From contig JACZJB010000136.1 in the NCBI GenBank assembly GCA_014860805.1, positions 36,948 to 100,947 of the forward strand: 64,000 nucleotides of DNA, in the 5' to 3' direction. Numbering within the stretch: position 1 is the first letter of the stretch; the number at the start of each line of letters is the position of its first letter. This DNA is from Anaerolineales bacterium (GTDB lineage: Bacteria > Chloroflexota > Anaerolineae > Anaerolineales > Villigracilaceae). The notes beneath the pieces were generated by a model, which did not search any database, was not told where the DNA came from, and worked only from the letters and a program-made list of their open reading frames with translations. This document shows positions 16,736 to 37,256 of the stretch, one piece after another. The translations under genes and the position numbers were made by a program.

Positions 16736-19700
16736 CTACTTTTCAGGGATAACGCTGACAAGCACGGCGCGGACGAGCCGGCGGGAGGTGAACTTCCTGA
16801 GTTCACTGTTCCAGTTTTCACAGGTAACGAGAGTGACCCAGTCATATTCTTCGTGCTTGAAGAGCGCGGAGAGGCTGGCCGGGGAGATCAGTCGGTTCTG
16901 CTGAACCTGGTAGATGTATATCTGCCCATTGGCGTGAATCCTGAATTTGTCACCAATTTTCAAATCCTTGATGTAAGCAAAGGAAGTGAGGTTGCCGTTC
17001 GGGTCGGTGGCGTGGCCAGTCAGAATGGTGTTGCCCGCCCAAGTGGGGTAGGCGGAACCTTCAAGATAGCCGATCTTGCTTTCCAGCCAGGTGACGTCCC
17101 AGCCGTTGTTGTACTTGATGCCCACGATCGGTTGGTTGATGCTCAGGGAGGGGATCTCCAGGCGGAGATTCTCTTTGGTTTCGTAGAGCAGATTCCCAGT
17201 TTGAGCAGGAAGCGGGGTAATCTCGCCGGGAGCAAAGCCTGTGACCGGGATCATGACACCCGAAGCAGGGAGCTCGAATCCCGTGTTCGCTGCGCCGCCG
17301 CTGCCTCCTCCGCCAATTCCATTCGGGATTGTGAAGGTGCGGACCATATCAGTCCCTGCAGTGTTTCCATCACCTGCAAGCTCAAGGCCATAGAGATCTG
17401 TGATGGAGGTGGTACCGCAAATGAAGAGGCGATAGTTGCCATAGGCGAGAGGTAAGCCATCATTTACGTTGACAGTGGCAATGAAAGGACCCGCGCCGCC
17501 ATTATTACTGTAGGTTACGAAGTTGATGGTAATGGCAATATCCTGTGAGCTTACACCACCGGCGCAACTGACAGTTTGAAAATCATCAGCGTTGTCATGA
17601 ACCAGCATAAAGTTGGCCGGGTTGGTGACATCGTCCAGCGCGGTGTTGCCGGCTGGGTCATTAAGATCCTGGTCGAAGGTGACGATGAATTGCGTGACGC
17701 TGGCTGTGACCACTTCAGCTTCTGCAAGGATGCCGTCCCCGGTGTCTGCAACAGTGTTGATTCCATTCGTGACAACTTTAGGCGGCATGGGCAAAATTGA
17801 AAGATCCATGCTGGCGGAATCTGTCAGGTTGCCGCCTGAACCGTTGTTGCCGAGATCGTCAACGTCAATTTGCAGAGTGTCGCCGCCATTGAATCCCGCT
17901 GGTGGATCGTAGCGCATGCCGTTGAGCGCGGCGTTGATGTCACTCAGCGCGCCGCTGAAGGTCATTGTGTTATCGGTTGTTCCGTCGCCTGTGCTGAAGA
18001 TCAACCCACTGGTGGTGCTGAGGGTGAGCCTGCCTTGTATAACGGTGAGGGTGGTTTGGACAGCATCCGTGCCGGCATCGGGGTCGCTGAGTGTGATACG
18101 GGATGCATTGGCAGTGTTGAAGAAGAGCGGAGAGCTTTCGTCCACATTCTTCGAATTAGATTGGAGCGTAATAACCGGCGCATCATTGACATTCGAGATG
18201 GTGATGATGAATTGTTCTTCCATGAATAAACCGCCCGCATCTTCACTGTGAATGCAGATGGTGAGGGTGCCCTGGATGTCGGCATCCAGAACTGCGGCTG
18301 TTTCGAGAGTATCGCCATTCAATTGGAATGATGCATCGTCGGGCCCGCCGCAGAAGGAGTAGGTGAAAGTATCGCCGCTGTCTGGATCGGTTGTGGATAG
18401 AGTCCCGACAACGGTGCCGGCAGGCAGGCCTTCGTTCACGATGCTGTTCGAAAGAGCAATGTCTGTGGGAATGTCGTTGACGTTCGCAACAACGATAGTG
18501 AAAGGCTGCTCGACATTTACAGTACCATCTGTGACTCGCAAGGTGACGTTATGGTTGCCGATATGTGCATTGGTGGGCGTGCCGCTAAGGGTGGCAGTTC
18601 CGTTACCATTATCCACGAGGGACAACCATGCAGGCAGTGTGGGAGCGGTAATGGTGAGCGTGTCACCCAGGTCTGGATCTGAGGCGGTGATATTGTAGGA
18701 GTAAAGGACATCTTCCGTGGCACTCGTAACTGCTGTGCTGGTGAAGGCAGGAGCGTCATTGACATTGGCAACTGTAACAACAAATATCTGATCTGCGCTG
18801 GCAGTACCGTCGCTGACTCGCAATGTGACGTTGTGATTGCCGACGTTTGCATTGGTCGGTGTGCCAGAGAGCGTGGCTGTTCCATTTCCATTATCCACAA
18901 GGGATAGCCAGGCAGGTAAGGTTGGGGCAGTGATGATAAGGCTGTCACCAACGTCAGGATCATTGGTTGTAATGTCATAGGTGTACAGCGCGGCTTCGGT
19001 AGCGGAGGTCACGGCTGTGCTGGTAAAGGCAGGAGCATCGTTGACATTGGCTACTGCAATCGTGAAGTTTTGCTGAACAGAGACCGTTCCGTCACTGACT
19101 TGCAGTACCACAGGGTTGTTTCCGGCGTTTGCATTAAGTGGAACGCCGCTGAGTGTGGCTGTGCCATTGCCGTTATCTACCAAAGAGAGCCAGGAGGGCA
19201 GGGTCGGTGCGGTGATGGCGAGAACAGTTCCCAGGTCCGGATCTGAAGCGATGATGTTGTAAGTGTAGAGGATGTCCTCGGTGGCGGCGGTCACCGCTGT
19301 GCTGGTGAAGGCAGGGGCGTCATTGACATTGGCAACGGTTATGACAAAGTTCTGATCGACATTCAAAATGCCGTCGCTGACTCGCAAAGTGACGTTGTTC
19401 GCCCCGACATTGGCATTGCTGGGTGTCCCAAAGAGTGTGGCTGTTCCATCACCGTTGTCAACGAGGGAGAGCCATGCAGGCAATGTTGGAGCAGTGATCG
19501 TGAGTACGGAACCCAGATCAGGGTCGCTGGTTGTAATGTTGTAAATATAGGACAGATCTTCGGTGGCTGCGGTGATGCCTGCACTGGTGAAGAAAGGCGC
19601 GTCATTCGTGTTGCCTACATCGATCGCGAAAACCTGATTGACATTCGCAATACCATCACTGACATTCAGGGTGACGTTATGTATGCCCACGTTCGCATTG

Positions 19701-22700
19701 ACTGGCGTTCCGCTGAGTGTGGCTGTGCCGTTGCCGTTGTCAGTAAAGGTCAACCAGGCGGGGAGAGTCGGCGCGGTGATGGTTAGAACAGCTCCCAGGT
19801 CCGGATCGGAGGCGGTGATGTTATAGATGTAGAGGGCGTCTTCCGCTGCTGTTGTGATCGGGGTGCTGGTAAAGATGGGCGCATCGTTCGTGTTAGTCAC
19901 CGTGATCGTGAATATCTGATCCACATCCGTGACGCCATCATTGACGCGCAAGGTGACATTATGAATGCCGACATGTGCGTTCAATGGTGTGCCGCTGAGG
20001 GAGGCGGTGCCATTGCCGTTATCCACGAGCGATAGCCAGACAGGCAGGGTGGGAGCAGTAATGATGAGCGTATCGCCGTCTGGGTCACTGGTTGTAATGT
20101 TGTATGTGTATGCGCTGTCCTCGGCCGCATTGGTGATCGGCGTGCTTGTGAAGGCTGGCGGGTCGTTGATGGGATTCACCGTGACTGTGAATGTAGTTTC
20201 AACGAACAAGGTGCCGGTATCTGTGGCGCGGATGGTGATTTGCGCTGAGCCGTTTGCATTCGGTGCGTAGTCCAGCACCAAATTCTGGTTGCCAGTGACG
20301 CTCAACGAAGTAAATAGTGCGGCATTCGTATTGCCGGTTATCGAGTACGTGAGCGCGGAGTCTGCATCTTCCACATCTGCAAAAGAGGTCCACAGGTCAA
20401 TTGTGGTGTTCGGCGCATCTTCATCTACAGTGACATTGGCAATGCCAGAGGTGACGGGTGTATCGTTGACAGGATTCACTGTGACTGTGAAAGTCGTTTC
20501 AATGAACAAGCCACTCGCATCCGTGGCGCGGACCGTGAGCTGGGCACTGCCAAATTGATTGGGTGCATAGTCCAGAACAAGGTTCTGCCCGCCTGCAACG
20601 CTGACAGATGTGAACAGTGCGGGATTCGTATTCCCTGTGATGGTGTAGGTCATCTGCGCATCTGTGTTTTCCACATCCGCAAAGGACGGCCACAGGTCTA
20701 TTGTCGTGTCCGCGGCATCTTCGTTAACTGTTACATTCGCTATGCCTGTGGTGGTGGGCGCATCATTGATTTCAGTGATATTGACCGTGAAGACGGTTTC
20801 AATGAACAGGCCGCCTGTGTCGGTAGCCCGAACTGTAATTTGGGCACTGCCGCTGGCGTCTGGCGCAAAATCAAGGACGAGGTTTTGGCCTGCATTTATG
20901 TTGTGCGAGGTGAACAAAGCAGGGTTGGTATTGTTCGCGACGGTGTAGACCAAGGCGCTGTCAGCGTCTTCGATGTCTGCAAAGGAAGGCCATAAGTCAA
21001 TTGTGGTGTTTGCCGCGTCTTCATCCACAGTGACGTTGGAAATGCCAGTTGTGGTAGGCGCATCATTGACCGGATTAACTGTCACAGTGAACGTGGTTTC
21101 AACAAACAGGCCGCCCGAGTCAGTTGCGCGGACGGTAATGTCTGCAGTGCCCGCCTGGTTTTCAGCGTAATCGAGAACCAGGTTTTGATTGGCGAGGATA
21201 TCCACCGACGTGAAGAGCGCCGCGTTGGTGTTGGTTTGGATGGCGTAGGTCAAAGCGCTGTCAGGCTCATCCAAGTCTGAGAAGGAAGTCCACAAGTCAA
21301 GGGTCGAGTTTGAAGCGTCTTCATCCACAGCGACGTTTGCAATACCGCTGGTTGTCGGTGCATGGTTGACGATTTGCAGATAGGTCAATTCCACGCTTTC
21401 GATTGTAGGCGTGATGTTCACATCCGCCGTGCCGAGCGTAACACGGTATTGGGCGTATTGTCCGTTGGGGCTGGCGATCACACCGCTGGTGGCTTGCCAT
21501 GCAGACCAGGTTCCATCAGGCGTGGGAGTGTTGCCTGTGCGTGTTTCAAATGCAGCGTTCGTGCCGGCAGGGATGGAGCTGACCGAGATGAGATCGAGCC
21601 AATCCACAACCGAGCCTGCATCGAAGATGCGCGACTCGAAGGCACAGGGGGTGCCATACGGAGTCAAACGCATCCAGTCGACAATGGCTGCCGTGCCGCC
21701 TGCGTCGTAGTCGCTGATGGCGGGACGCATATCTGCCAGCGCGACGTTGTGCTGGGCGTAGAAAATGCCGTCAATATAAAAGGAAACAGTGGTGCCCGTC
21801 CAATCAATGCGATAACGATGCGGCGTGCCGATCCATGTTCCGGGGATGGGCGTGTTTTGCCCATCGCTGGTCCGTGCATAGAACTGGTTGGTTGTATTAT
21901 TTGTACTAAAGATCGCCCAGCTTCCGCCAAAGTCTGGCGCGCCGATCAATCCCACGTGCTGGAACTGGCTGGCTGTAAATGTGGCTACAAATTCGAAGCT
22001 TCTGCCAGGAGTAAAAGTTGTTGTCGAATAATATGCAGCAGCGCCATCGACCACAACTTGGCCGCCGCCTACAGTGGATGTTCCGCCCGTCCAAGGCGCG
22101 CTTACCCAGCCTGCCGGGAGACTGGCTCCGCTAAACTCCGTGCCAACGGTTGGGTTGAGGATTAACTCTCCGTTGGTCGTTTCTGTGATGTAGCAGGCGT
22201 TCGTACCGGACCCGAAATCTGATCCTGTTGTATCGAGCAATCCATCCGCTTTGGTGATAAAACTCCAATCCGAATCAGCGCCGAGCGGATTGCCAGCCAA
22301 ATCAGCGACTGCACTTTCCACATGGACAGCATATTGCGTCCCCAGCGCAAGGTTGCTGTTCGGGTTGAGCGTGGCAGTTACGCCGGAATAGCTGAGAGTA
22401 AACGGCACTGGAGTATTGGGACCATCCAGGGTTAATGAGAAGTTGGCAGGGATGATGGTGGCCGGATCCATGGGTTCGCTGAATGTAACCGTGATATTGC
22501 CGGTCTCATCCACATCCACTGCGTTCGGCGCAGGGACGCGGCCGATAATGGTTGGCGATGTGACATCCGCACCAATGGAATATGTGATTGAAACGTCTTC
22601 CAAGACCGGCGTGAATGTATTATTCGATGCGGCCAGTACAACCTGATATTGGATGTAGCGTGAATTACCGCTTAATGCCGATCCGGATGTTGGCACTGAC

Positions 22701-25700
22701 TGGAAGGAAGTCCACGTGCCGTCCGGAGTGGGCGTGTTGCCGATGCGGTAAGAGAATGCAAAAGATGTACCTGCGGGTGTTTGACCCGTCCATGCCATGG
22801 TTTCCCAGTTGACAGGCTGGCCTGCGTCAAAGACGCGCGAAGTGAAGGTACAAGGCGAAATATACGGGCTGACGTGCATCCAATCCACCGTGAGGGCGGG
22901 GTTATTGAAGTCGTAGTCACTGGCAGCGGCGCGCATTTGGGTGTTGATGGTCACAGTGCGGCTGAGAACATTCACTCCATCAATATAGAAGTTGACGCTG
23001 TTTGCGTTCCAGTCGATGCGATAGTGATGTGGACTGCCAATGTATTGAGCGCCCAGTGCAATTTTGTCTTCACCGACGTTGAACGGTCCGCCGGCATTCG
23101 CCAGAATACGGGCATAAAGCTGTGAACCGTCATTGCTTGTGGAGAACATGATCCAGGGCGAATTGTTGAAAGTCGGGTCGCCGCCGCCGAAGCCAACATG
23201 CTGGAACGACTGGCCGGTAAATGTCGCTACGAATTCCAATGATGTTCCGGGGTTAAGCAGTGTATCGTTTCTGGCAGAAACACCGTTCAAGGTCAGCAAA
23301 CCTCCGCTGACAGAAGGAGTTCCGCCCGTCCAGGCATTGCTGGACCAACCTGAAGGCAAAACGAAACCGTCAAACTCAGCGGCAATGGTAGGCGGCAAAA
23401 TCAATTCGCCGTTGCCGGTCTGAGTGGGATAGGCACAGCTTAAGTCTCCGCTGCTGAAATCACCGAGGATGGTATCTCCGAGTGTTCCGGACGGTGTGGT
23501 GAAATTCAGAGTCGCTGGCGGGACTGGAGATGTTGACGAGTTTGCGCTCGCATCCGCAGAGGTGACGCGGAAGTAATGCGTGGTGTTCGGGATAAGGCCC
23601 GTCAACGTGATGGAGTGTGTCGTGGTAAGAACTGCATCAGTGGAATTGAGATTCAAAGCAGCAGAATCAGTTCCAAAGTCCACGCGTGAATCGGAGGCTT
23701 CGTCCGTCGTCCAAGTGATGGTGACTGTCCCATCGCCATTGACGGTGGAAACGATATTTGAAATGACGGGCGCAGTTGTATCAAGTGAATAGACAGCCTG
23801 ATAATCCCCACCGGGGGCAAGGAAGTTGGCGTATTCGATCCCTTTGATGGTTTCAGTAGTGTACGTTACCGGGCTACCGTTACGCGTAATGCTTTGAAGG
23901 GGCCCCGCGTTGGATTGCGTGGGCAGCATGGCGTACAGCCCATTTGCTCCGCCGCCAACCGAAACATGGAAGTCAAGAGCGTTTCCATTCCAGGTGATTC
24001 CGCTGAAGGCGGAGAGGTTGCGGCCATCCAGCCAGGTCAATAATTGTTTGGCCGAGATGACAGGCACACTGCGTGCCTGAGCAGATGCGACCATCGCCAG
24101 TGCGGCAGTGTTGGCGCTGGGGCCGCCATCGGTGTGCATATTGGAAGTGAAAGCGCCATAATAACCGGGTGCGCCAATCGCATTGTCGAGGAGTACATCA
24201 ATGTTGTATGGGAATGTCTGTCCTGATTCGTCTGTAAATTGAGTGGTCGCCTGATAGACATCGATCAGCGTGCCATCAAGATCAGCGAATCGCATGGGCA
24301 TGCCCGAGCCAGTGAACAAGCCGGGACGGTCCTGAATCCAACTGGCAGGCCAGTAATAGTAGTTGGTATCTAGGCGCATACCGTTATCCAGTTGGACTTT
24401 CGGTTGAGTAGACCAGTCACTGAAGGCAATGCAATGTGTGCGCTGGGTGGTTTGCGGGTTTATGCTTGGGAACTGTGCAAGCAGTGCAGGGATCTGGGTG
24501 GCGTAATCGTTCGCAAGGGAGGCCGGTGTAAAGTTGGCACAGCCTGTATTGATATGAACCGCGAACTCGTATCCCTGCGCCTGATAGGCTGCCAGTTGTG
24601 CGTTTGTGATGGGCGCATTGGTATACAAATATGTGCTGCTGCGCACACACTCCCAATCGTTTACATTGCAGCCAACCGGGCTGAGGGAATTGTAAGCGTT
24701 GAGACGATTAACAAGGTCGCCACCGCCGTGTTCATCGTGGGTCATAACGAAGACCGCTTTTTCGCCGCGCGGGAAATACCAGAAACGCGGCAGGGGATTA
24801 TTGTCCGCATTCATGGAAAAGATCATGTTGGCAAGCAGGCGTTGCTGTTCATCCGCCTGTGGGATTTGAACTTTATTAAAGTCCACCCAATCTGGATAGA
24901 ACAAGTTATCCGAGCGGATTGGCCCGGCTTGTCCGTCACGGCTCTGACCTGCCCAGGCAGGATTGCCCTGACGGGTATACACAACCGAACGCGCCAGGTC
25001 GTACGTGAAAGCTGCTGCCTGCCCACCGTTTGATCCCACGCTGACAATTGTTACTGCGGGGTTTGTGGTGGCAGTGGTCGCGTTGGAATACAGCGTCGCA
25101 ATGGATGTTGCTCCGCTCAAGGTATAACGATCGGCAGTGCCGTGGAATTGAATGGTCTGATTGACAATGCCTGTTCCCGGCGCAGAAGCTGTGTTGACCA
25201 GTATATATCCTTCGCTTAATGTTGTGCCAGCGGGGGTTATCCCAAGGAGGGAGGCAAGCTGCGGGTCGGGTTTCATCGCGATCAAATTACCGCCGTTATT
25301 GACCCAATTTGTGATCAGGCCAACTTCTGTCGGTGTCAACGTTATTTCGCCAAGAATGACGACCTGATAATTGTTGAGCAACGCGCCGGTGAGGTTGGAA
25401 ATATCCGTGGCTGTGAATTCGTTCAAGCCTTCGGCGCGCAGGATTTCAGCGTAATAGCGGCTGAATGGATTGGCTGCGCTGGACAGAACGAGAATGGGTC
25501 CACCAGGACCTTCGTTGGGCGGGGGACCCTGGGTGGAGAATGTCCATGTGTAATTGGAGGCGAGCGGGTTACCTGCGATATCCGTTACACCGGATGCTCC
25601 GCCGATCACTCGGGCGGTGTATGTTGCTGAAAGGGTCAATGCTGAGGAAGGATTAAGAGTCACTGTCCGCGTGCCGGCGTTATAAGAAACAGTGGCAGGC

Positions 25701-28700
25701 ACCAGGTTGTTGGAAGCGTCGCGCAGTTCAACGGTGGAATTTGTGATGGTGAGCACATCCATGCCCTCGCTGAAAGTGGCAGTTATGCTTGTCCCGGTGC
25801 CGACGTTTGTGACGCCATTCAATGGGGCGACAGTTGTGATCGTTGGCGCGGTATTGTCAATTGGGGTATCGGGCGCGAAAAGTACATCCACCCAATAGTT
25901 GCTCGCCTGAAATGAACTTTGCGGGAAGGCGCTGCTTCCATAGTTATACACACCGTTTGGCCCATCTGGGTCTGCATTTGACAATGCACGCAATGGCGCA
26001 TTGTAAACCTCGGATGTGAAATAATTATTTGCAGCGGCGTAGTTGCCGGATTGAGTGAAATAAGAGCCGATGTAGGTTGTATTTGCATCGATATGGACGG
26101 GCGTGTCAAATAGAATTTCCTGCCAGCCGACATCTGCGGAGTTATTGGTGTAGTTTTTTGCTCCTAATTGTGTTCCGTTCGATGCCCATAGATGCCCAAT
26201 GAATGGACCCGTGTTCGCTGCGCCTTTATAGAATGTGATGCCGATGATCGAACCGGGGACGTCAGACTTAAATTTAAAACCAGCTTCAATGGCTGTCGGG
26301 TCATTTACAGATGCATTGCCTGTAATCGTTCCCTGCTCCCAGACGCTGTAAATTTGCGGCGTAGAGTCGAAGATAACATCCACCCAATAATTGCTGCTTT
26401 GATATGTTTGGGCCGGGAAGGAGCTTGGGCCATAGTTATACACGCCATTTGGGCCATCTTCGCCATTGGCTAAGGCGCGTAATGGCGCGCTGTTGAATCC
26501 GGTGACAAGGTAATTAACATCGGAAGAATATCCACCATTAGCCGAATGATAGGAGGCAACATAGGTTGTGTTTGCAGTGATTTGAACAGGCGTGCTGAAA
26601 TAAACTTCCTGCCAGCCGGATGCGGTTTCACTGGTGAAGACCGCTTCGGCTAATTGCGTTCCATCAGAAGCCCAAAGATGCCCGGTATGCGTGCCAGTGT
26701 TGGCGGTATCTTTGTAGAAGCGCAAGCCGGTGATGTAACCGGCTTCAGAAGATTCGAATTTGACACCTACTTCAATAGGCTGTCCATCATTCTCATATAG
26801 GTTGGCAGGGGTGAATGTATCATTCCAAATCGAGCAGGGACAAACGCGTTCAATTACATTCAAAGTGATGCTTGCGGAAGGTGCGCCAATGTTGCCGCTA
26901 TCGTCAATGGCACGGCTGAGAATTGTGGCAGTTGTGTTGGGTGTGCCGGGAATCCAGTTGTAACTCCACGCTGTGCGCCCTGTTGCCATTTTCCACGTTG
27001 CGCCATTGTCAAGCGAGACCTCAACTGCCGCAACTACACCGCCGGTATCTGAAGCGGTGCCAGATATAGTGAGAGCACTTCCACTAGGCGCATTAGCGCC
27101 GGTGATGGGAGAAACGATGGCTGCTGTTGGGGGGGTAAAATCTGTCGAAGCCGTAGCAGTTGTCAGGTTGTTTTGAAGCGAGCCGGGTTGTACTCCCATG
27201 TCTGCAAAAAGGTTAACTGTCGCTTGTTGCATACTTGGGTCTTCTGTGCTTGTGCCGCGGTCATGGTTGCCGTCAAGCCCCCACACCCATTGAACGGTTC
27301 CAGCTCCCAAGACTAGTGCGCCGCTTGGCGCGCGATACATGGAGAGGTGGTGCGTTTGACCATTGGAGTTGGTGGTCGAAAGCCAGAAACGCCCATCCGG
27401 ATAATTATCTTCGTATAGTGGTTGTTCATGGTCCCACTCGTATCCAAGCGTGTTGCTTTCGAGGTTGGCAATTGTCGCCGGGGAAAGAGATGCGATTGGC
27501 GTGTTGCGCCAGAAGCGCAGCGGACCAAAATCATCGGGCACCTGAATTGTTGCTGTGTTCCCCATCCAACTTATCGTACCCATCAGGGAATTTTCAGGAT
27601 TACAACCATCGTGTCCTGCAACACTGCATCCATCGCGCCACAAACCCGTCCATGTATTTGGGTCGGGATCGCAGTTGTTGTTTCCTTGGCAGGAATAATG
27701 TTCACTGCCTGCAAGCGAGCCTTCCTTGTAAGAGACCAATGTGCGGAAAGACGTATTCGTTCCGTCGATGCTGTTTTCCCAGCGTGTCTTCCAGTAGACT
27801 GAGTTTCCACTAAAGAATGCCAGATGCACACCCGCGTCGCGCGCTGCTTCCACTGCTGCACGCTGTTCGGCGGACCAATATTCATCATGCCCAACGGATA
27901 GAAATATGTTGTGCTCTAGAATCTCAGAACTAAAGCGATGTGAATCAACGTCTGTAAAATAACTGACGTCATATCCGTTGCGCTCCAGCCAGCGGATCAT
28001 CGGATACTCGGAGTTGAACCAAAAATCTTCGGTTGAGTTCGAGCGAGTGAGGAAGGGGCGATTGTAGCTGACTTTGTGTGCATGGTTTGGAGCGGCATAT
28101 AAACTATACCCACCGTATCCATTGTATGCCTGCCAGGTGGTATCAGAAGTTTGGAACAACAAATCTGAATTGCCGTCATCATCACGGACGATAAAAGTAA
28201 TATGGCTTGCGCCCGGTGTTGCATCGTCACGAACCAGTTTGGCAATATAAATACCTGAGGTGGCGGTTCCAGGTACCACCCACGAAGCGGATTCCGCCCA
28301 ATTGCCGCAATCTACAAGATTGATATTATCTGTTCCATTGAATAAACAGGCTGGCTGTATTTGCGGCAAAACCGCAGATGGGGCAATTGTAGCGATCTTG
28401 CGCGCGCCATTTCCCGCATAATATCCCATGCGATAAATATCAATGTGATATGCGCTTGCGTTTGTGTCAATCTTAAAGCGCACCGTGGCGCCCTGATTAA
28501 CGCTGATGTCGGTGGCAAAGCCTTGAATGTTCGCGTCGCCTGCGCCGCTTACATCCCACTCACTGGGCGGGTTGCCCGGCAGGCAGTTCTCCGCCACGAT
28601 CTCGTTTGGCGGAGTAACACAATCGGCATCGAGAGCGGGCTGCGGAGGTGCAGATGAGTTCTCAATGCCGATTGAATTGTTTTCTGACGAGCTGATTCGC

Positions 28701-28828
28701 TGGCTCTCCCGGGCGTATGCCACTTGGCCTGGAGAGCCAATTGCCCCGGCAACGACCATAAATAACAAGATTAGTGTAATTAGTTTGTGAAGTACTGATT
28801 GTGTAGTGGAAGCCGATAGATTTTTCAT
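16736..28828 (-). CDS. Giant (4030 aa) secreted multidomain protein with C-terminal sortase domain
   Basis: Signal peptide; N-terminal N,N-dimethylformamidase-beta-like C-terminal domain (HDEYWSAEQRAAVEAARDAGVHLAFFSGNSVYWK); two DUF4082-like modules; SbsA-like Ig; polysaccharide-deacetylase-like region; FN3; two LamG/ConA-like modules; 4 cadherin-like and 6 putative-Ig repeats; sortase TLVTC. Single open frame of 12.1 kb. Confidence 0.92.
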   Translation of the reverse strand: MKNLSASTTQSVLHKLITLILLFMVVAGAIGSPGQVAYARESQRISSSENNSIGIENSSAPPQPALDADCVTPPNEIVAENCLPGNPPSEWDVSGAGDANIQGFATDISVNQGATVRFKIDTNASAYHIDIYRMGYYAGNGARKIATIAPSAVLPQIQPACLFNGTDNINLVDCGNWAESASWVVPGTATSGIYIAKLVRDDATPGASHITFIVRDDDGNSDLLFQTSDTTWQAYNGYGGYSLYAAPNHAHKVSYNRPFLTRSNSTEDFWFNSEYPMIRWLERNGYDVSYFTDVDSHRFSSEILEHNIFLSVGHDEYWSAEQRAAVEAARDAGVHLAFFSGNSVYWKTRWENSIDGTNTSFRTLVSYKEGSLAGSEHYSCQGNNNCDPDPNTWTGLWRDGCSVAGHDGCNPENSLMGTISWMGNTATIQVPDDFGPLRFWRNTPIASLSPATIANLESNTLGYEWDHEQPLYEDNYPDGRFWLSTTNSNGQTHHLSMYRAPSGALVLGAGTVQWVWGLDGNHDRGTSTEDPSMQQATVNLFADMGVQPGSLQNNLTTATASTDFTPPTAAIVSPITGANAPSGSALTISGTASDTGGVVAAVEVSLDNGATWKMATGRTAWSYNWIPGTPNTTATILSRAIDDSGNIGAPSASITLNVIERVCPCSIWNDTFTPANLYENDGQPIEVGVKFESSEAGYITGLRFYKDTANTGTHTGHLWASDGTQLAEAVFTSETASGWQEVYFSTPVQITANTTYVASYHSANGGYSSDVNYLVTGFNSAPLRALANGEDGPNGVYNYGPSSFPAQTYQSSNYWVDVIFDSTPQIYSVWEQGTITGNASVNDPTAIEAGFKFKSDVPGSIIGITFYKGAANTGPFIGHLWASNGTQLGAKNYTNNSADVGWQEILFDTPVHIDANTTYIGSYFTQSGNYAAANNYFTSEVYNAPLRALSNADPDGPNGVYNYGSSAFPQSSFQASNYWVDVLFAPDTPIDNTAPTITTVAPLNGVTNVGTGTSITATFSEGMDVLTITNSTVELRDASNNLVPATVSYNAGTRTVTLNPSSALTLSATYTARVIGGASGVTDIAGNPLASNYTWTFSTQGPPPNEGPGGPILVLSSAANPFSRYYAEILRAEGLNEFTATDISNLTGALLNNYQVVILGEITLTPTEVGLITNWVNNGGNLIAMKPDPQLASLLGITPAGTTLSEGYILVNTASAPGTGIVNQTIQFHGTADRYTLSGATSIATLYSNATTATTNPAVTIVSVGSNGGQAAAFTYDLARSVVYTRQGNPAWAGQSRDGQAGPIRSDNLFYPDWVDFNKVQIPQADEQQRLLANMIFSMNADNNPLPRFWYFPRGEKAVFVMTHDEHGGGDLVNRLNAYNSLSPVGCNVNDWECVRSSTYLYTNAPITNAQLAAYQAQGYEFAVHINTGCANFTPASLANDYATQIPALLAQFPSINPQTTQRTHCIAFSDWSTQPKVQLDNGMRLDTNYYYWPASWIQDRPGLFTGSGMPMRFADLDGTLIDVYQATTQFTDESGQTFPYNIDVLLDNAIGAPGYYGAFTSNMHTDGGPSANTAALAMVASAQARSVPVISAKQLLTWLDGRNLSAFSGITWNGNALDFHVSVGGGANGLYAMLPTQSNAGPLQSITRNGSPVTYTTETIKGIEYANFLAPGGDYQAVYSLDTTAPVISNIVSTVNGDGTVTITWTTDEASDSRVDFGTDSAALNLNSTDAVLTTTHSITLTGLIPNTTHYFRVTSADASANSSTSPVPPATLNFTTPSGTLGDTILGDFSSGDLSCAYPTQTGNGELILPPTIAAEFDGFVLPSGWSSNAWTGGTPSVSGGLLTLNGVSARNDTLLNPGTSLEFVATFTGQSFQHVGFGGGDPTFNNSPWIMFSTSNDGSQLYARILANAGGPFNVGEDKIALGAQYIGSPHHYRIDWNANSVNFYIDGVNVLSRTVTINTQMRAAASDYDFNNPALTVDWMHVSPYISPCTFTSRVFDAGQPVNWETMAWTGQTPAGTSFAFSYRIGNTPTPDGTWTSFQSVPTSGSALSGNSRYIQYQVVLAASNNTFTPVLEDVSITYSIGADVTSPTIIGRVPAPNAVDVDETGNITVTFSEPMDPATIIPANFSLTLDGPNTPVPFTLSYSGVTATLNPNSNLALGTQYAVHVESAVADLAGNPLGADSDWSFITKADGLLDTTGSDFGSGTNACYITETTNGELILNPTVGTEFSGASLPAGWVSAPWTGGTSTVGGGQVVVDGAAAYYSTTTFTPGRSFEFVATFTASQFQHVGLIGAPDFGGSWAIFSTNNTTNQFYARTSDGQNTPIPGTWIGTPHRYRIDWTGTTVSFYIDGIFYAQHNVALADMRPAISDYDAGGTAAIVDWMRLTPYGTPCAFESRIFDAGSVVDWLDLISVSSIPAGTNAAFETRTGNTPTPDGTWSAWQATSGVIASPNGQYAQYRVTLGTADVNITPTIESVELTYLQIVNHAPTTSGIANVAVDEDASNSTLDLWTSFSDLDEPDSALTYAIQTNTNAALFTSVDILANQNLVLDYAENQAGTADITVRATDSGGLFVETTFTVTVNPVNDAPTTTGISNVTVDEDAANTTIDLWPSFADIEDADSALVYTVANNTNPALFTSHNINAGQNLVLDFAPDASGSAQITVRATDTGGLFIETVFTVNITEINDAPTTTGIANVTVNEDAADTTIDLWPSFADVENTDAQMTYTITGNTNPALFTSVSVAGGQNLVLDYAPNQFGSAQLTVRATDASGLFIETTFTVTVNPVNDTPVTSGIANVTVDEDAPNTTIDLWTSFADVEDADSALTYSITGNTNAALFTSLSVTGNQNLVLDYAPNANGSAQITIRATDTGTLFVETTFTVTVNPINDPPAFTSTPITNAAEDSAYTYNITTSDPDGDTLIITAPTLPVWLSLVDNGNGTASLSGTPLNAHVGIHNVTLRVNDGVTDVDQIFTITVTNTNDAPIFTSTPITTAAEDALYIYNITASDPDLGAVLTITAPTLPAWLTFTDNGNGTATLSGTPVNANVGIHNVTLNVSDGIANVNQVFAIDVGNTNDAPFFTSAGITAATEDLSYIYNITTSDPDLGSVLTITAPTLPAWLSLVDNGDGTATLFGTPSNANVGANNVTLRVSDGILNVDQNFVITVANVNDAPAFTSTAVTAATEDILYTYNIIASDPDLGTVLAITAPTLPSWLSLVDNGNGTATLSGVPLNANAGNNPVVLQVSDGTVSVQQNFTIAVANVNDAPAFTSTAVTSATEAALYTYDITTNDPDVGDSLIITAPTLPAWLSLVDNGNGTATLSGTPTNANVGNHNVTLRVSDGTASADQIFVVTVANVNDAPAFTSTAVTSATEDVLYSYNITASDPDLGDTLTITAPTLPAWLSLVDNGNGTATLSGTPTNAHIGNHNVTLRVTDGTVNVEQPFTIVVANVNDIPTDIALSNSIVNEGLPAGTVVGTLSTTDPDSGDTFTYSFCGGPDDASFQLNGDTLETAAVLDADIQGTLTICIHSEDAGGLFMEEQFIITISNVNDAPVITLQSNSKNVDESSPLFFNTANASRITLSDPDAGTDAVQTTLTVIQGRLTLSTTSGLIFSTGDGTTDNTMTFSGALSDINAALNGMRYDPPAGFNGGDTLQIDVDDLGNNGSGGNLTDSASMDLSILPMPPKVVTNGINTVADTGDGILAEAEVVTASVTQFIVTFDQDLNDPAGNTALDDVTNPANFMLVHDNADDFQTVSCAGGVSSQDIAITINFVTYSNNGGAGPFIATVNVNDGLPLAYGNYRLFICGTTSITDLYGLELAGDGNTAGTDMVRTFTIPNGIGGGGSGGAANTGFELPASGVMIPVTGFAPGEITPLPAQTGNLLYETKENLRLEIPSLSINQPIVGIKYNNGWDVTWLESKIGYLEGSAYPTWAGNTILTGHATDPNGNLTSFAYIKDLKIGDKFRIHANGQIYIYQVQQNRLISPASLSALFKHEEYDWVTLVTCENWNSELRKFTSRRLVRAVLVSVIPEK
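16739..17168 (-). other. Sortase-like domain at the C-terminus of the giant protein
   Basis: 143 aa: LRLEIPSLSINQPIVGI...NTILTGHATD...DWVTLVTCENW...SRRLVRAVLVS; candidate catalytic His codon 17012-17014, Cys codon 16820-16822, Arg within SRRLVR. Confidence 0.85.
18470..20175 (-). repeat. Six tandem ~94-aa (about 282-285 bp) Ig-like repeats in the giant protein
   Basis: Consensus NDAPAFTSTAVTSATEDxLYTYNITASDPDLGDTLTITAPTLPAWLSLVDNGNGTATLSGTPTNANVGNHNVTLRVSDGTxxVDQxFxITVANV; DNA-level period visible from recurring 'cattgacattggc'. Confidence 0.88.
20175..21370 (-). repeat. Four tandem ~100-aa cadherin-like repeats in the giant protein
   Basis: Consensus NDAPTTTGIANVTVDEDAANTTIDLWPSFADVEDADSALTYTITGNTNPALFTSVSVxGGQNLVLDYAPNxxGSAQITVRATDTGGLFIETTFTVTVNPV. 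Confidence 0.88.
25870..26840 (-). repeat. Duplicated DUF4082-like modules in the giant protein
   Basis: Two copies of ...VGVKFxSxxxGxIxGxxFYKxxANTGxxxGHLWAS(D/N)GTQL...WQEVxFxTPVxIxANTTYxxSY....APLRAL...GPNGVYNYGxSxFPxxxxQxSNYWVDVxF. Confidence 0.75.
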
Positions 28829-29159: not shown

Positions 29160-30761
29160 TTATCTTTGCATTTGCAGCCATAGATAGGAATATGGCTGAA
29201 GCGTCAGATTCTCGGCGATGATGTATTTTTGTTGCGCGAACAGGTCCAGATAATTTTGTTGAAATTTCTTTGGAAGCATCATCGATTCGGCAGATCCGCT
29301 CAGGTTGTTGAGGATTAGCATGGTGTCTTCTTCGTGTTGGCGGATATAGGCTGCTACTGCGGGATTGCCTGTTTCGATCCATTCCATCTGACTGCTTCCA
29401 AAGGCGGCGTGTTTTTTGCGGATGGCGATCATTCGCTTTATGGAGTTGAACAATGAATCAGGATCATCGATCTGGCTGGCAACATTGATATTTTGATACC
29501 CCAGTTTTCCTTTGACAAGTTCCGAATATGGCTCGTTGATGGAAAACCCCGCATTTGGAGAGTCGTCCCATTGCATGGGCGTGCGGACGCCGTTGCGATC
29601 GGGTAGATCAAGGTTGTCGCCCATACCGATCTCGTCGCCGTAATAGATGATTGGGGAGCCCGGCAGGGTGAACAGCAGTGAATTGGCAAGTTCAATTTTG
29701 CGACGATCATTATCGAGCAGGGGAGCGAGGCGGCGGCGTATGCCAAGGTTTAGTTTCATGCGCGGTTCGTAGGCGTACTGTTCCCACATCCACTGGCGTT
29801 CTTCGGGTGTGACCATTTCCAGGGTGAGTTCATCATGGTTGCGGAGGAAGGTGCACCATTGGCAGTTCTCAGGGATGGGCGGTGTGCGCCGCATAATTTC
29901 CGCCATATCTTCAAAGCGCCCCTTTTTGAGAGCCATGTAAATGCGCGGCATGATCGGGAAGTGGAATCCCATGTGGAATTCATCGCCGTCTCCGAAGTAT
30001 GGACGAACATCCTCGGGCCATTGATTCGCTTCGCAAAGCAGGATGCGCCCAGGATAGTGCTCATCCATAAATGAACGCAATTTTTTCAGGTAGATATGGG
30101 TTTCTGGCAGGTTTTCACAGTTGGTGCCTTCACGCTCAAACAGGTAGGGAACTGCATCAGCACGGAAGCCATCAATTCCCAGGTCCAGCCAGAAGCGTGC
30201 GACATTGAGCATTTCCTCCTGCACTTTGGGATTATCAAAATTCAAATCAGGCTGGCTGGCATAAAAACGATGCCAGTAGTATTGTCCCGTCTTTTCATCC
30301 CATGTCCAGTTGGATATTTCGGTATCCAAAAAGATGATGCGCGCATCCTTATACTTTTGGTTTGTATCGCTCCAGACATAGTAATCGCGATAGGGTGAAT
30401 TGCGATCGGAGCGGGATGCCTGGAACCAGGGATGGGCATCCGATGTATGATTCAGCACAAGGTCCATGACGATGCGGATGCTTCGCTGATGGGCGGCTTC
30501 GATCAACTCCTTTAGATCATCCAGCGAGCCATAGGTTTTATCCACATTGTAATAATCAGCAATATCGTAGCCGTCATCCTTCAACGGCGAAGGATAGATG
30601 GGCATGATCCAAATGCAATCTACGCCGAGCGTTTGCAGGTATTCCAGCTTTTCAGTAAGCCCGCGCAAATCGCCGCGGCCGTCACCGTTGCTGTCTTTAA
30701 AAGCACGCACAGAAATTTCATAAAATACGGCGTTCTTGTACCAGAGAGTTGTATCCATCAT
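29160..30761 (-). CDS. GH13 family alpha-glycosidase / trehalose synthase-like
   Basis: 533 aa; [68 protein letters not shown]. Confidence 0.88.
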
Positions 30762-30767
30762 AAGATT

Positions 30768-32525
30768 TTATTTGACCGAGTTTCCAGTATTTTCCTGAAT
30801 CGCAAGTTCGATGAAGACCGCTGCGCTCCACCCGAAAATTGGTGCGGCGGATTTGGGCGGTTCTCCCGTTTGAGAGTTGTAGTATTCGCGGATGCCCGGC
30901 TGATTTGCGATCAGGTTTAATGTTTTTTCGCGCAGTTCGTTTGCAAGCTGATATTCGCCAATGGTTTGCAACGCTTCGACAAAAAAATAATTGATGTTGG
31001 CCCAGATGGGACCGCGCCACATTTTGTCGGGGCTGTAGGCTGGGTCGTTGTACGCGACAGTAGGGATGCCAAACCTGCCCAGGAATTCAGACGGGTCTTG
31101 CAAGTGGGCGAGCAATTGTTTTGTGATTTCTTTCGGAAGTTGACCGGTCCACAACGGATAGAGGTTGAAAGGCGTTGTGACAGGGATGGGCTTTTCGTTG
31201 TGTAGAGCCTGGAAGATTCCTGCTTCTTCATCCCAAAGATGTTCGATCATGCGCTTTGTAAGTGCCTCAGCTTTTTGTTTCCATTGTCTTGCCTCATCGG
31301 TTTTTCCGATGATTGCGGCGATTTCTGCCAGCGAATTCATTTGAATCACCAGGTAGGTGTTGATGTCCGGCGATTCAACAGGCATGCCATGATCCCAAAG
31401 TGGGCTGTTATCCAATCCCGATGAATAAGGATGCGTGTATTGCACAATTCCATCTTTGTCGTCATCATTATGGTCGAACCACCAGGCATTCCACCGTACG
31501 AGCGGTTCATAGATTTCCTGCAAGAAATCCGCGTTGGGGTCTGATGTATGAATTTTCAAGGCTGCCCATGCCATAATGGGAGGTTTCGTAACGCGTGCGT
31601 GGATTGGATGATTGATTTCTGATACGACGCCTTCATCGAAAATTGCATCGGGAAGCATCCCATCCGTCAGTTGATTTGCAAGCATCACGCGGATTTGATC
31701 GCGCGCAAGCTGCGGATCAATGTGGCGGAAAGCAATAGCATGCAGGGCGCTATCCCATAGCCAGGCGCCAACATAAAACGCCTTGGTCGGCATCATGGCT
31801 TCGTATTTGACATAGCCCGATGGACTGACAAGATTATTTGCCATAACCCACAACGCATACGCGTATTTTTCGCGTCTTGACTCGCTGACAACCGGTGCGC
31901 GCTCGAACCAGTTGTCCCAACGGATTTGAGCAGCCTTGTGCACGCTGGAGAATGGCAGTGATGGGGGAGCACCATCATCACCAATGTGAAGAGTGATCGA
32001 GCTGTCTTCCTCTGCTCGAACGATGAATGTGATCATGTGACCATCTTCATCTACGCGGGTCTGGTGGGTGACCACGGTGCCATTGCTCACGCTGTATGCC
32101 GCTTCACGGACATGCCGCAATTCTCCGCCGGTCTCTGTCTTGAGCCAGTGAATTGGCCGTATTCGAAAACGCATCCCGACAGTTTTATGGTCTGGGAGAC
32201 CAATTGCCAGCGTAGTTTCATCTTGAAAGACCAGGCGGAATTCTCCGGCGCTGGTTTGAAGCGTCAACATTTCAGGTGATGTGGATGTCTTAAATTCGAG
32301 CAGGTTCGCGTGTTCGTCCACAAAAGACAGGTCATCGATGAACGGCGGGCGATGCAGATAACTTTCGATGCCCGGTTCCACTTTGATAAGCCGCTCTGCG
32401 AGTTTTATGTATAAAGTTGATTTATCGCGATGTTGATAAACCAGCAGGCGCGAACCTCGATCACTGAAAGGGACGTTTTTAATGTCGATCTGGTCTTGCA
32501 GGAGTTTTCGTAATGAAATATCCAA
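30768..32525 (-). CDS. GH63/MGH1-like alpha-glucosidase family protein
   Basis: 585 aa (alpha/alpha)6-barrel-type sequence: YVGAWLWDSALHAIAFRHID, LDNSPLWDHG, MWRGPIWANINYF. Confidence 0.8.
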   Translation of the reverse strand: MDISLRKLLQDQIDIKNVPFSDRGSRLLVYQHRDKSTLYIKLAERLIKVEPGIESYLHRPPFIDDLSFVDEHANLLEFKTSTSPEMLTLQTSAGEFRLVFQDETTLAIGLPDHKTVGMRFRIRPIHWLKTETGGELRHVREAAYSVSNGTVVTHQTRVDEDGHMITFIVRAEEDSSITLHIGDDGAPPSLPFSSVHKAAQIRWDNWFERAPVVSESRREKYAYALWVMANNLVSPSGYVKYEAMMPTKAFYVGAWLWDSALHAIAFRHIDPQLARDQIRVMLANQLTDGMLPDAIFDEGVVSEINHPIHARVTKPPIMAWAALKIHTSDPNADFLQEIYEPLVRWNAWWFDHNDDDKDGIVQYTHPYSSGLDNSPLWDHGMPVESPDINTYLVIQMNSLAEIAAIIGKTDEARQWKQKAEALTKRMIEHLWDEEAGIFQALHNEKPIPVTTPFNLYPLWTGQLPKEITKQLLAHLQDPSEFLGRFGIPTVAYNDPAYSPDKMWRGPIWANINYFFVEALQTIGEYQLANELREKTLNLIANQPGIREYYNSQTGEPPKSAAPIFGWSAAVFIELAIQENTGNSVK

Positions 32526-33710
32526 TTATCCTTTGACCGCGCCTGCCATCATGCCGCGTACGAAGTAACGCTGGAAGGCGAAGAATACAATCATCGGCAG
32601 CAGCATGGAAAGGAACGCGGAGGCAGTCAGCAAGTGCCAGCCAGCACCGAGGGATGTCACCATGTTGCTAATTTGATAGGTCATAACCGGGGTGGTGCCG
32701 CCCAAAAATACCAGGGCAACCAGCAGGTCATTCCAAACCCATAGGAATTGGAAAATTCCAAGCGAAGCTATGGCTGGCATGGCCAGCGGAATGACCAACT
32801 TCGTAAATGCAGTCCAGTGAGAGGCGCCGTCGAGATACGCAGCTTCAAAAAGATCGCTGGGCAGGGAGCCAAGGAAGTTGCGCATTAAATAAATCGCATA
32901 CGGCATACCAAAACCGGTGTGAAAGAGCCAGACTCCCAGGAATGTGCCGTTCAATCCCATCTGGGCATACAACCGTGAGATTGGAACCAATGTCATCTGG
33001 AGGGGGACAACTTGAAGTCCGACAAGGATGGCAAATAAAATAAAGCGTCCTTTGAAATGCATCCAGGCAAAGGCATACCCGGCGAATGCGGCAAACAGGA
33101 TCGGAAGAATCGTTGCGGGTATCGTGATGAAAAGGCTGTTTAGAAAAGCGCGTCCCATGCCGCGTGGATTTAACAAATCGCTGGCATCGCATTTGAGATC
33201 CAGAGATTGCGCGTTTTCGCTGCAATCCTGCAGATAGCTGTTTCTGCCGCGATAGCCGACCAACGCGTCTACATAGTTGCTGGTTGTAAAGCGAGAAGAG
33301 ACCTCTCCCGAAGAGGCGCCTCGCAGGTAGGATGCAATGTCCGCAGCTTCTTGTGAAGTGGGAAGCGGGATATCGCCCATGTGAGGCTTGCCATCAATGT
33401 CTTTGCGCAGAAGCGCCAGTAATTGCAGTGAACGCGGGTATTTGGCGGTCAACTCCGGGTTGGATAAATCCGCTTGTGGGATGGTTTTTCCATCTGCTCC
33501 ATGGCAGGCGGCACATGATTGAATATAGGGGGCGTTTGCTTCCTGGGAGGAGAATACTGTCCACCATCCCGTTGTGTTTACATCCTGTACCGGGCGAATG
33601 GAGGTGATCAATAGGCCAAATGTTGGAACGACCCAGATGAGGATCGTAAATATGACAATGAAGTGGGTCGGAATTCTGCCCAAGACACGGTTGATCTTGT
33701 CGCGTTTCAT
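32526..33710 (-). CDS. MalG-type carbohydrate ABC permease with inserted c-type cytochrome domain
   Basis: 394 aa; permease EAAYLDGASHWTAFTKLVIPLAMPAIA (EAA loop); residues ~50-135 contain CAACHGADGKTIPQADL...GKPHMGDIPLPTSQEAADIASYLRG. Confidence 0.93.
   Translation of the reverse strand: MKRDKINRVLGRIPTHFIVIFTILIWVVPTFGLLITSIRPVQDVNTTGWWTVFSSQEANAPYIQSCAACHGADGKTIPQADLSNPELTAKYPRSLQLLALLRKDIDGKPHMGDIPLPTSQEAADIASYLRGASSGEVSSRFTTSNYVDALVGYRGRNSYLQDCSENAQSLDLKCDASDLLNPRGMGRAFLNSLFITIPATILPILFAAFAGYAFAWMHFKGRFILFAILVGLQVVPLQMTLVPISRLYAQMGLNGTFLGVWLFHTGFGMPYAIYLMRNFLGSLPSDLFEAAYLDGASHWTAFTKLVIPLAMPAIASLGIFQFLWVWNDLLVALVFLGGTTPVMTYQISNMVTSLGAGWHLLTASAFLSMLLPMIVFFAFQRYFVRGMMAGAVKG
33300..33580 (-). 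other. Mono-heme cytochrome c domain inserted in the permease
   Basis: CxxCH codons at 33501-33515 (TGTGCCGCCTGCCAT read on minus strand); candidate distal Met codon 33378-33380; cytochrome-like terminal helix DIASYLRG. Confidence 0.88.
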
Positions 33711-34669
33711 CGCATCGCCTCCTGTGCCAGAAATCTTTTGATGTTGTAGTAAATAAAGGGAATGATGGCGATCACAAGAATAACCGCCACAGCGGTACCA
33801 CGGCCCATGTTGAAGTTTTTATACATTTCGGTGTACATACGGTTGGCGATCACATTTGTGCCGAAATTACCGCCGGTCATTACATAAACGATATCAAATA
33901 ATTTCAGAACGTTGATGACCATGGTTGTGATCACCACTAAAATTGTCGGCATGATGATCGGGACCATGATTTTCCAGAATGCGGTCCATTCAGTGGCGCC
34001 ATCCACGCGTGCCGCTTCAAGGATTTCGTCGGGCACGGATTTTAATGCGGCGGAAAGGATCGTCATGCAGAACCCGGTCCACATCCAAATACCCACAACG
34101 ATTAACATCAAGGTGTTGACGCCCGGTGTGGACAGCCACGAAACGGGTTTGCCCCCGAGACTGGTAATGATCGAATTCAACAGGCCGATCTGAACTTGCT
34201 GTGTACCGTAGTCGTAGACGAATTTCCAGATGATCCCAGCTCCGACGAACGAAACAGCCATGGGCATGAAAATGATCGCCTTTGCCAGGGCTTCATATTT
34301 CACCCGATCTGCCAGCACCGCGAACGCGAGTCCAATTGATACGGTTCCTGTCGTCATCAGGAATATCCATTTGATATTATTTCCAAAGGATGACTTCCAG
34401 AATGTTTCCCAAAAGGACTTAAATGAGGTGAAGTCGAATTCAGATGTTAACGCGTAACGATAGTTTTCAAAGACGCCCCAACAGGCTTTGCCGGCTGCGC
34501 AGGTTGTCGCCGCAGATGCGGTACCATCCCCGTTCTTAAAGCTGAGAGCGACTGTATTTATCATTGGATAAACAATAAAGAAAGACATGACCAATAGCGC
34601 GGGCAATAAATATAGCCAGGGTGCGATAAGACCCTGCTTCATGATCTTGGGGATGTTTTGGGACGCCAT
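33707..34669 (-). CDS. MalF-type carbohydrate ABC permease
   Basis: 320 aa; EAARVDGATEWTAFWKIMVPIIMPTI EAA loop; overlaps following permease by 4 nt. Confidence 0.92.
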   Translation of the reverse strand: MASQNIPKIMKQGLIAPWLYLLPALLVMSFFIVYPMINTVALSFKNGDGTASAATTCAAGKACWGVFENYRYALTSEFDFTSFKSFWETFWKSSFGNNIKWIFLMTTGTVSIGLAFAVLADRVKYEALAKAIIFMPMAVSFVGAGIIWKFVYDYGTQQVQIGLLNSIITSLGGKPVSWLSTPGVNTLMLIVVGIWMWTGFCMTILSAALKSVPDEILEAARVDGATEWTAFWKIMVPIIMPTILVVITTMVINVLKLFDIVYVMTGGNFGTNVIANRMYTEMYKNFNMGRGTAVAVILVIAIIPFIYYNIKRFLAQEAMR

Positions 34670-34734: not shown

Positions 34735-36027
34735 TTACTTTAATGCTTCAGCTTGCACAGCAGCCGCATCGCTCAATGCTTTATCCAGATCGCCGCCGTT
34801 CAAATACTCTACGATGGCTTTCCATTCGGCGTTTCCGAAGCCGCCGGGAATGGTGTCGCCAATATCGGGAGTGAAGCCTTTTGTTTCGGCGAGAGCCTGC
34901 CCAAGTTTTTGTAATGCAGGATCAACGTAGTTGCCGTTTGCGCCTTTGTTGGGTGATAAACCGAACGTTGCTTTTGCCCAATTGGCTCCTCCCTCTGTTG
35001 AGGAAAGATAAGCCACCAGTGCTTTTACAGCTGGTTTGTCGCTAAAGGCCATCATCCAGTCCGCACCGCCTTGCAAACCTTGAGCTCCAGGGACGATAAA
35101 GAAATCGTAATCAGTACCCTGCTTGAGGTCGGGGAACTGAGCCGCGATATTTCCGCCGGCAAAACCTGACTGCTTGACCATCATGGCTTCTGCTGGATCA
35201 GAGAAGGGCTTGAAGATCGCATCGCCGAAGCTGGTTGAGAGGGTGCCTTCGGCGCCGCCAACAGCATATTTCGGATCTGTTGCCCATTTTCCATAGGTTT
35301 CATAAGCAAGCTTTACGCCCGGATCATTGTAGGGGATGCTGCCATCCAAAATACCCATTACATAGTCTGGGCCCTGTTGCACAAGCAGAATATCCTGAAT
35401 GAAGTCCGATGCGGTCCAACCTGTTGCATCACCTGACTCAATTCCCATACTCCAGGGAACGTTTCCGTCGGCAGCCATCTTTTCCACAAGTGCATCCAAT
35501 TCATCCCATGTTGCAGGGACCGTGTATCCCAAGGCTTCGAAGTTTGCCGGGCTGTACCAGATGATCGTCTTTACATCGGCTTTGATGGGCAAGCCAAGCC
35601 ATTTGCCGTCAATGGTGCCGGGGGTGATGAAAAATTCCGCATAATTAGCGCGGTTTGCGCCCAGATCATCCATGCTAATCAGTTTATCCTGATACTGCAC
35701 CAGTTGAGCCACATTCCAGAATGCAATATCAGGCGGGGTGCCGGCCTGGACGCGGGTATCCAATAACGCCTGATCACGAGTGGATTCTGGCTTCAGTACG
35801 ATGCCGCAGGCATCTACAAATGGTTGCAGCACCTGGTTCAAGTTCGTCTCTTCCACGCCTGACCATTGGTAAAGCATGCTAATTTCATCGCCAGGTTGAG
35901 CCCCCATACACATTTCGGATTGCGCAGCAGGAGCCTCGGTCATGGCGGGGGCCGCACTACCACAGGCAGTTAACAACATGGCGGTTACAACGAACAAGGC
36001 AAAGGTTTGCCAAAAGAACTTTTTCAT
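34735..36027 (-). CDS. Carbohydrate ABC substrate-binding lipoprotein (alpha-glucoside type)
   Basis: 430 aa; lipobox LLTACGSA; type II SBP pattern. Confidence 0.9.
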   Translation of the reverse strand: MKKFFWQTFALFVVTAMLLTACGSAAPAMTEAPAAQSEMCMGAQPGDEISMLYQWSGVEETNLNQVLQPFVDACGIVLKPESTRDQALLDTRVQAGTPPDIAFWNVAQLVQYQDKLISMDDLGANRANYAEFFITPGTIDGKWLGLPIKADVKTIIWYSPANFEALGYTVPATWDELDALVEKMAADGNVPWSMGIESGDATGWTASDFIQDILLVQQGPDYVMGILDGSIPYNDPGVKLAYETYGKWATDPKYAVGGAEGTLSTSFGDAIFKPFSDPAEAMMVKQSGFAGGNIAAQFPDLKQGTDYDFFIVPGAQGLQGGADWMMAFSDKPAVKALVAYLSSTEGGANWAKATFGLSPNKGANGNYVDPALQKLGQALAETKGFTPDIGDTIPGGFGNAEWKAIVEYLNGGDLDKALSDAAAVQAEALK

Positions 36028-36245: not shown

Positions 36246-37256
36246 TTAAGTGGTCAGACGTTCGATCAACTTTAAAGGAAGGTTGATATGTTGAAGCGGG
36301 CGCTCAGACTCACCGATGCGGGACAGCAGGATCTCGGCAGCCAGCCTTCCCGATTCATCCAAGTGCTGGCGGATGGTTGTTAAATCCACATGTTCTGCCA
36401 CATCAATGTCATCAAAACCGACCAGAGCCAGATCGTCCGGTATTCTTTTACCCATTTCCCTTGCAACTTTCATGACACTCATAGCCTGCATATCTGATGC
36501 TGCAAAAATTGCAGCAGGCGGTTTGGAAAGGCCGATTAATTCACGGGCAGCCTGGCGTGTCTCCATGGCTGTGTAAGGGGCGGAACGGATATAGGTTTTT
36601 GCCAATGAAAAGCCGGCATCCTGTAGCGCCTGCTTGTATCCCGTCAGACGGGATTTAATGGGATGAATTGCAAATCGTTCGGGGGGCTCAATATCCCCTA
36701 GAAATGCAAAACTTCTGTACCCTTTTTTGATGAGATGCTCCGCAACCAGACGTCCGCCGTTCATATCGTCGATCAAGATGCTGTTCAATTGCGGGTGGGA
36801 GTATTCGATCAACACAGTTTCCATGCCGCTTTTGGATAATCGCAGGGCATCCTGGTCTCCCATGGAGAGTGACATGATGATCAACCCATCGATATTCCTC
36901 ATTAGAGGAATGGAGGAGATATATCCCTGAAGATGGTCCATCGAGTCTACAGGGTAGATTACTAATTCATAATTGGCTTTCGATAGTGCAGACGCAACTC
37001 CCCGAAGCCTCTGGACAAATGAAGGAGCGGTAAAGAACGGCGTCAACACACCAATGCGGTCGGTATTCTGCAAGGCGCGGGCGCGGGCGTCTGCACGCGG
37101 AATGAATCCCAATTGGTCAATTGCATCCATCACGCGCTTGTGAGTTTCAGGATTGACCTTGTCCGGATCATTCAGTACGCGTGAAATAGTTGAAATACTT
37201 ACACCGGATTTTTTTGCTACATCGTAGATCGTTGGAGACTTCTTTTGAGCAGTCAT
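36246..37256 (-). CDS. LacI-family transcriptional regulator
   Basis: 336 aa; PTIYDVAKKSGVSISTISRVLNDPDKV. Confidence 0.94.
   Translation of the reverse strand: MTAQKKSPTIYDVAKKSGVSISTISRVLNDPDKVNPETHKRVMDAIDQLGFIPRADARARALQNTDRIGVLTPFFTAPSFVQRLRGVASALSKANYELVIYPVDSMDHLQGYISSIPLMRNIDGLIIMSLSMGDQDALRLSKSGMETVLIEYSHPQLNSILIDDMNGGRLVAEHLIKKGYRSFAFLGDIEPPERFAIHPIKSRLTGYKQALQDAGFSLAKTYIRSAPYTAMETRQAARELIGLSKPPAAIFAASDMQAMSVMKVAREMGKRIPDDLALVGFDDIDVAEHVDLTTIRQHLDESGRLAAEILLSRIGESERPLQHINLPLKLIERLTT

Follow-up and report, generated by a model that had tools for sequence, protein, structure and literature searches.

Few transporters are as well understood as the ABC sugar importers, and to our knowledge none of these importers contains a redox cofactor in the permease. 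A gene found in 64,000 nucleotides of DNA from an Anaerolineales bacterium (this whole stretch being termed ‘the window’) raises the question of whether a cytochrome domain has genuinely been built into such a permease and, if so, what it might do there. The Chloroflexota concerned abound in sludge and groundwater, and most of them have not been cultured. An initial inspection of the DNA that used no database searches (the ‘sequence-only reading’) had described a 394-residue MalG-like permease, interrupted by a c-type cytochrome domain and read in one frame from end to end; that description is borne out by the Pfam domains of the permease and of the cytochrome, which lie in the same unbroken frame (Table 1).

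Table 1. Features of the locus. Positions are those of the window, here and throughout; residue numbers are those of the 394-residue fusion permease.
Feature	Position	Strand	Basis
MalG/SugB-type ABC permease with internal cytochrome c domain, 394 aa	32526..33710	-	Pfam, AlphaFold2 model, Foldseek
Permease core with EAA loop (EAAYLDGASHWTAFTKLVIPLAMP)	32529..33155	-	PF00528; structural match to SugB and MalG
Clade-specific second loop segment, Cys163 and Cys174	33189..33224	-	Cys pair invariant in 34 fused sequences
Cytochrome c domain, residues 54-135 (about), first extracytoplasmic (P1) loop	33306..33551	-	PF00034/PF13442; boundaries from unfused orthologs
His110-Met111, His110 being the likely distal heme ligand	33378..33383	-	Conservation
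CAACH heme c attachment motif, residues 66-70	33501..33515	-	Both Cys and the His invariant
Transmembrane helix 1, about residues 17-38	33597..33662	-	Sequence; helix 3-37 in model
MalF-type partner permease, loop with Cys pair TTCAAGKAC	33707..34669	-	PF00528
Sugar-binding lipoprotein (SBP), lipobox LTAC	34735..36027	-	Nearest solved relative AcbH 3oo6; conserved neighbour
LacI-family regulator	36246..37256	-	
MGH1/GH63-like glycoside hydrolase	30768..32525	-	PF22422
GH13 trehalose synthase-like enzyme (TreS)	29160..30761	-	TIGR02456, 823 bits, above cut-off

The permease and its operon

By the criteria that apply to permeases, the protein is a MalG-type permease: the BPD_transp_1 family (PF00528) matches residues 207-387 above its cut-off (E 1.6e-15), an EAA coupling loop begins at residue 289, the fold is that of MalG and SugB, and the gene lies in an operon with a MalF-type partner and an SBP. 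The residues E289, A291, D294, G295 and P308 are invariant across 34 fused sequences (alignment A1) and are invariant or nearly invariant in a second alignment (A2). When the permease part was compared with solved structures using Foldseek, SugB was matched with E 3.7e-9 and MalG with E 1.5e-8.

The genes form a run that consists of the LacI regulator, the SBP lipoprotein, the MalF-type permease, the fusion permease, the GH63/MGH1-like hydrolase and the trehalose synthase-like GH13 enzyme, with the MalF-type gene and the fusion gene overlapping by 4 bases. From this gene context, the type I importer is probably of the alpha-glucoside type, with trehalose, maltose or another alpha-glucoside as its substrate. 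The operon of the fusion permease contains no ATPase gene, and the predicted transport of sugar is assumed to be powered by a shared ATPase that is encoded elsewhere. Elsewhere in the window, a gene on the minus strand (16736-28828) encodes a 4030-residue surface protein with many cadherin-like repeats and an apparent sortase-like C-terminal domain (TILTGHATDPNG ... WVTLVTCENW).

The inserted domain and its heme ligands

The insert, which had been placed at 33300-33580, was delimited by alignment with orthologs that do not contain it, yielding a segment of 82 residues (bounds in Table 1) that is flanked by GWWTV and an RFTxxNY segment and that bears out the earlier placement. The Pfam family Cytochrom_C matches residues 62-131 with 24.1 bits against a cut-off of 21.3, so that the cytochrome and BPD_transp_1 families both exceed their thresholds within a single frame; the sequence of the insert alone is above the cut-offs for both PF00034 and PF13442 (Cytochrome_CBB3), and the latter is matched by all 34 family members scanned (34/34). 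With C66, C69, H70 and G71 invariant across the 34 aligned fused sequences, the domain is a genuine c-type cytochrome domain, as had been proposed, and a chance occurrence of CxxCH is ruled out by the family profiles in combination with conservation across more than 50 homologous loci.

The identity of the distal ligand is a different matter. The methionine in the segment GKPHMGDIPLP (Met111) had been put forward for this role and is not supported, as the position is not conserved (M, L, V, I and T all occur there among relatives), whereas the adjacent His110 is retained by 42 of 43 proteins and by 11 of 11 others. Because His110 is conserved and position 111 is variable, the ligation predicted for the fusion family is His/His, by way of His70 and His110. 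The sole exception among the 43 (L066) displays a typical GQMP in place of the histidine, as if its distal ligand had been exchanged. The label ‘c-type cytochrome domain’ is therefore safe, while the label ‘His/Met class I cytochrome’ is not, since the family has no conserved distal methionine.

The insert had also been assigned to the first extracytoplasmic loop, and this placement stands: it is predicted to lie outside the membrane because it follows a first transmembrane helix with a K/R-rich (‘positive-inside’) N-terminus, and the model places it with confidence on the outer side. The AlphaFold2 model in question was built from 111 aligned sequences (pLDDT 91.2, pTM 0.81) and was adopted in place of one built from only the 34 fused rows, which reached a pLDDT of 57.5 and was set aside. 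Within the insert, the model contains a helix that ends at the CxxCH motif, two short helices (residues 85-88 and 94-102) and, at its C-terminal end, a further helix (residues 119-133); the order of these helices in the full-permease model fits a cytochrome topology, the Foldseek matches being those of the permease part.

Occurrence and descent

When 399 Chloroflexota genomes and the GTDB genome collection were searched, the same fusion turned up in many assemblies and proved widespread among relatives. A first extraction yielded 39 fused proteins, every one with CxxCH (39/39), and 15 more were added later, bringing the total of fused loci with this motif to more than 50 in dozens of related Chloroflexota genomes; a few of these loci share one genome or stem from near-identical ones, so that independent species are somewhat fewer than loci. 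Three genomes that carry the fusion (G005, G112 and G342) are assembled as single contigs. At a threshold of E 1e-9 or better, a profile of the insert matched 23 of 298 sampled Anaerolineae genomes, belonging to 15 of 185 genera, and where the matching region was viewed as DNA (22 of those 23 genomes) it was a permease fusion in all 22. The same SBP and MalF genes stand beside the fusion wherever the contigs reach far enough.

In a tree of the permease from which the insert had been removed, a single clade (support 100/99) contains every fused protein. Nested within it are two groups of unfused proteins, one in Leptolinea (L071) and the other in a group of Anaerolineaceae that includes L067, L068 and L080, and the simplest reading of the best tree is one ancient gain of the domain followed by two losses. 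After both losses the transporter, the SBP and the MalF-type permease remain in place, which argues that the cytochrome domain is an accessory that transport itself would not need.

The two parts of the protein evolve at different rates, with a mean identity of 53% for the insert versus 86% for the permease core, and with dN/dS values (for those pairs where they could be computed) of 0.05-0.31 versus 0.00-0.04. On these ratios the insert is under purifying selection, and its faster evolution fits that of a loosely constrained domain.

The same loop also exists in other forms. One relative (L082, 7974-9563) has two tandem cytochrome domains in it, each with CxxCH, and several others (L085, L086, L087, L107, L108, L111 and L083:5936-7027) have there a different insert, free of heme and about 60 residues long (HREW ... 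VIWIGNKRxGRIxxQ). In Brevefilum (L083:7102-7872 and L019), an open frame of 257 residues that belongs to the clade aligns with the window protein over residues 171-394 only.

Heme c assembly and terminal oxidases

The sequence-only reading had called for a look at cytochrome c maturation. The family that comprises CcmF, CcmC and CcsA (PF01578) is present in all 28 fused genomes searched, of which 27 are distinct, and genes of the CcmF/CcmC type are accordingly found in 27/27 of the latter. Among genomes whose ortholog has lost the domain it is present in 9 of 16 and missing from 7 of 16, a figure that may partly reflect gaps, as nearly all of the genomes are metagenome assembled. The link between the domain and the assembly genes has the expected direction for most of the ways in which the two losses can be paired; these represent two independent events, which cannot reach significance, and once phylogeny is counted the link is not significant. 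In three genomes whose permease has lost the cytochrome (G425, G426 and G432), CcmC-like genes contain in-frame stop codons, and a decay of heme c assembly in these organisms is possible.

Heme-copper oxidases are found in 21 of 27 fused genomes versus 2 of 16 unfused genomes, a correlation between domain and terminal oxidase that is gone when only independent pairs are counted. No oxidase was seen in the fused genomes G072, G407 and G410-G412.

What the domain may do

The reading preferred here, which as a whole is given a probability of roughly 0.45, is that of a MalG-side permease with a heme c domain in its P1 loop that acts as a redox-responsive accessory element. Very probably the Ccm system attaches heme c to the domain outside the membrane, with His70 and probably His110 as its ligands. 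The heme would exchange electrons with extracytoplasmic redox partners, its redox state would alter the engagement of the P1 loop with the sugar-binding protein, and uptake would thereby be matched to the respiratory state. Because the P1 loop of E. coli MalG contacts MalE, going by the title of a study (Daus 2007) that is cited in PMC3150292, a redox-responsive effect on docking is favoured over a relay or a structural role; a redox-responsive accessory role for the domain has a moderate likelihood. Several points count against this reading: an examination of the operon's own genes identified none for an electron-transfer partner, the link with heme c assembly depends on two losses, some unfused genomes retain assembly genes, and the insert evolves faster than the permease core. 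The fusion may tie sugar uptake to the electron-transfer state of the cell, as such a role would suggest. That the importer is gated outright, with the oxidation state of the heme directly switching uptake on and off and so coupling import to respiration or to redox conditions outside, is possible and rather doubtful.

Two alternatives retain the heme and assign it other work. The permease might do no more than anchor a monoheme cytochrome at the outer face, where it would pass electrons from one respiratory complex to another, or between donors and acceptors outside the cell, and leave sugar transport unaffected by its heme state. The families in which the domain falls (cbb3-type and class I carriers), the oxidases of most fused genomes and the tandem pair of domains in one relative are all consistent with such a carrier, but throughout the clade the domain is found in a sugar operon, which is an odd location for a general carrier, and in some fused genomes no oxidase was seen. 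Bis-His ligation is associated with a lower potential than that of the usual oxidase donors, and the potential predicted for this domain would accordingly fall below theirs; a tethered carrier is considered unlikely. The other alternative is that heme c serves only as a folding cofactor, in a spacer or lid that helps to hold the SBP on the transporter. A contact between P1 and binding protein of the kind indicated by the title cited above would agree with this, as would the heme-free insert of L085-L087, L107, L108 and L111, which indicates that additional domains are tolerated in the loop and perhaps put to use. Against it, the domain has disappeared from two lineages in which the transporter and SBP are still the same, and the undecayed heme motif is not readily explained by a purely structural role; docking alone is likewise unlikely.

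The remaining alternatives dispense with the heme or with the fusion. The insert varies more than the rest of the protein, as would fit a cytochrome domain that was captured and has since ceased to carry heme, but such a relic is highly improbable given a CxxCH motif that is invariant in every fused protein, a His110 that is nearly so, dN/dS values far below 1, and heme c assembly genes in every fused genome tested. Although the window genome consists of 274 contigs, the chance that the gene is a chimera of assembly or binning is virtually nil: this explanation is ruled out by the recurrence of the fusion in many independent assemblies, the three single-contig genomes among them. Absence of the insert from relatives together with a chimeric assembly, or a predicted structure with no cytochrome fold or with a cytoplasmic CxxCH, had been named as grounds for rejecting the fusion; the insert is instead widespread in relatives, is carried by the three single-contig genomes and is confidently predicted to fold outside the membrane.

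A selected heme c domain on a loop that may touch the SBP would offer a direct route by which the state of electron transfer could control nutrient uptake. Even if its role were to be only the carriage of electrons or docking, it would still be a cytochrome carried within the translocation unit of a transporter.

Relation to known proteins

No description of a fusion between a cytochrome c and an ABC sugar permease was found in the open-access literature. The insert shares with CcoP-type cbb3 subunits and class I cytochromes c (PF13442, PF00034) its CxxCH motif, predicted helix order and sequence family; those proteins use a distal methionine, whereas the insert has a conserved histidine and is sited inside an ABC permease. 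The nearest parallels are two proteins of which neither is of the same kind as the fusion permease. PuuD, a membrane urate oxidase with a C-terminal cytochrome c (PMC4562309), is likewise a membrane protein of another function to which a cytochrome c has been fused, but there the cytochrome c is joined to the end of an enzyme and not inserted within a transporter. CydDC is an ABC transporter with a heme-responsive ATPase (PMC4132815, PMC10374445); it is of the exporter type, handles non-covalent heme and has no cytochrome c domain.

Among the best structural matches to the fusion permease are the corresponding subunits of LpqY-SugABC (SugB, 8hps_B) and of E. coli MalFGK2 (MalG, 3puv_G), which have the same type I permease fold with about 25-30% identity over the aligned core. 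Both are without a cytochrome in the P1 loop, and the fusion clade differs from them additionally in possessing cysteine-containing loop extensions in both of its permeases. In the fusion permease this is the segment with Cys163 and Cys174, which may form a disulfide; it is kept in those members of the clade that lost the cytochrome and is missing from the outgroups. The MalF-type partner and its orthologs contain a parallel clade-specific loop with a conserved cysteine pair (TTCxxGxPCWG), and both loops persist after loss of the cytochrome.
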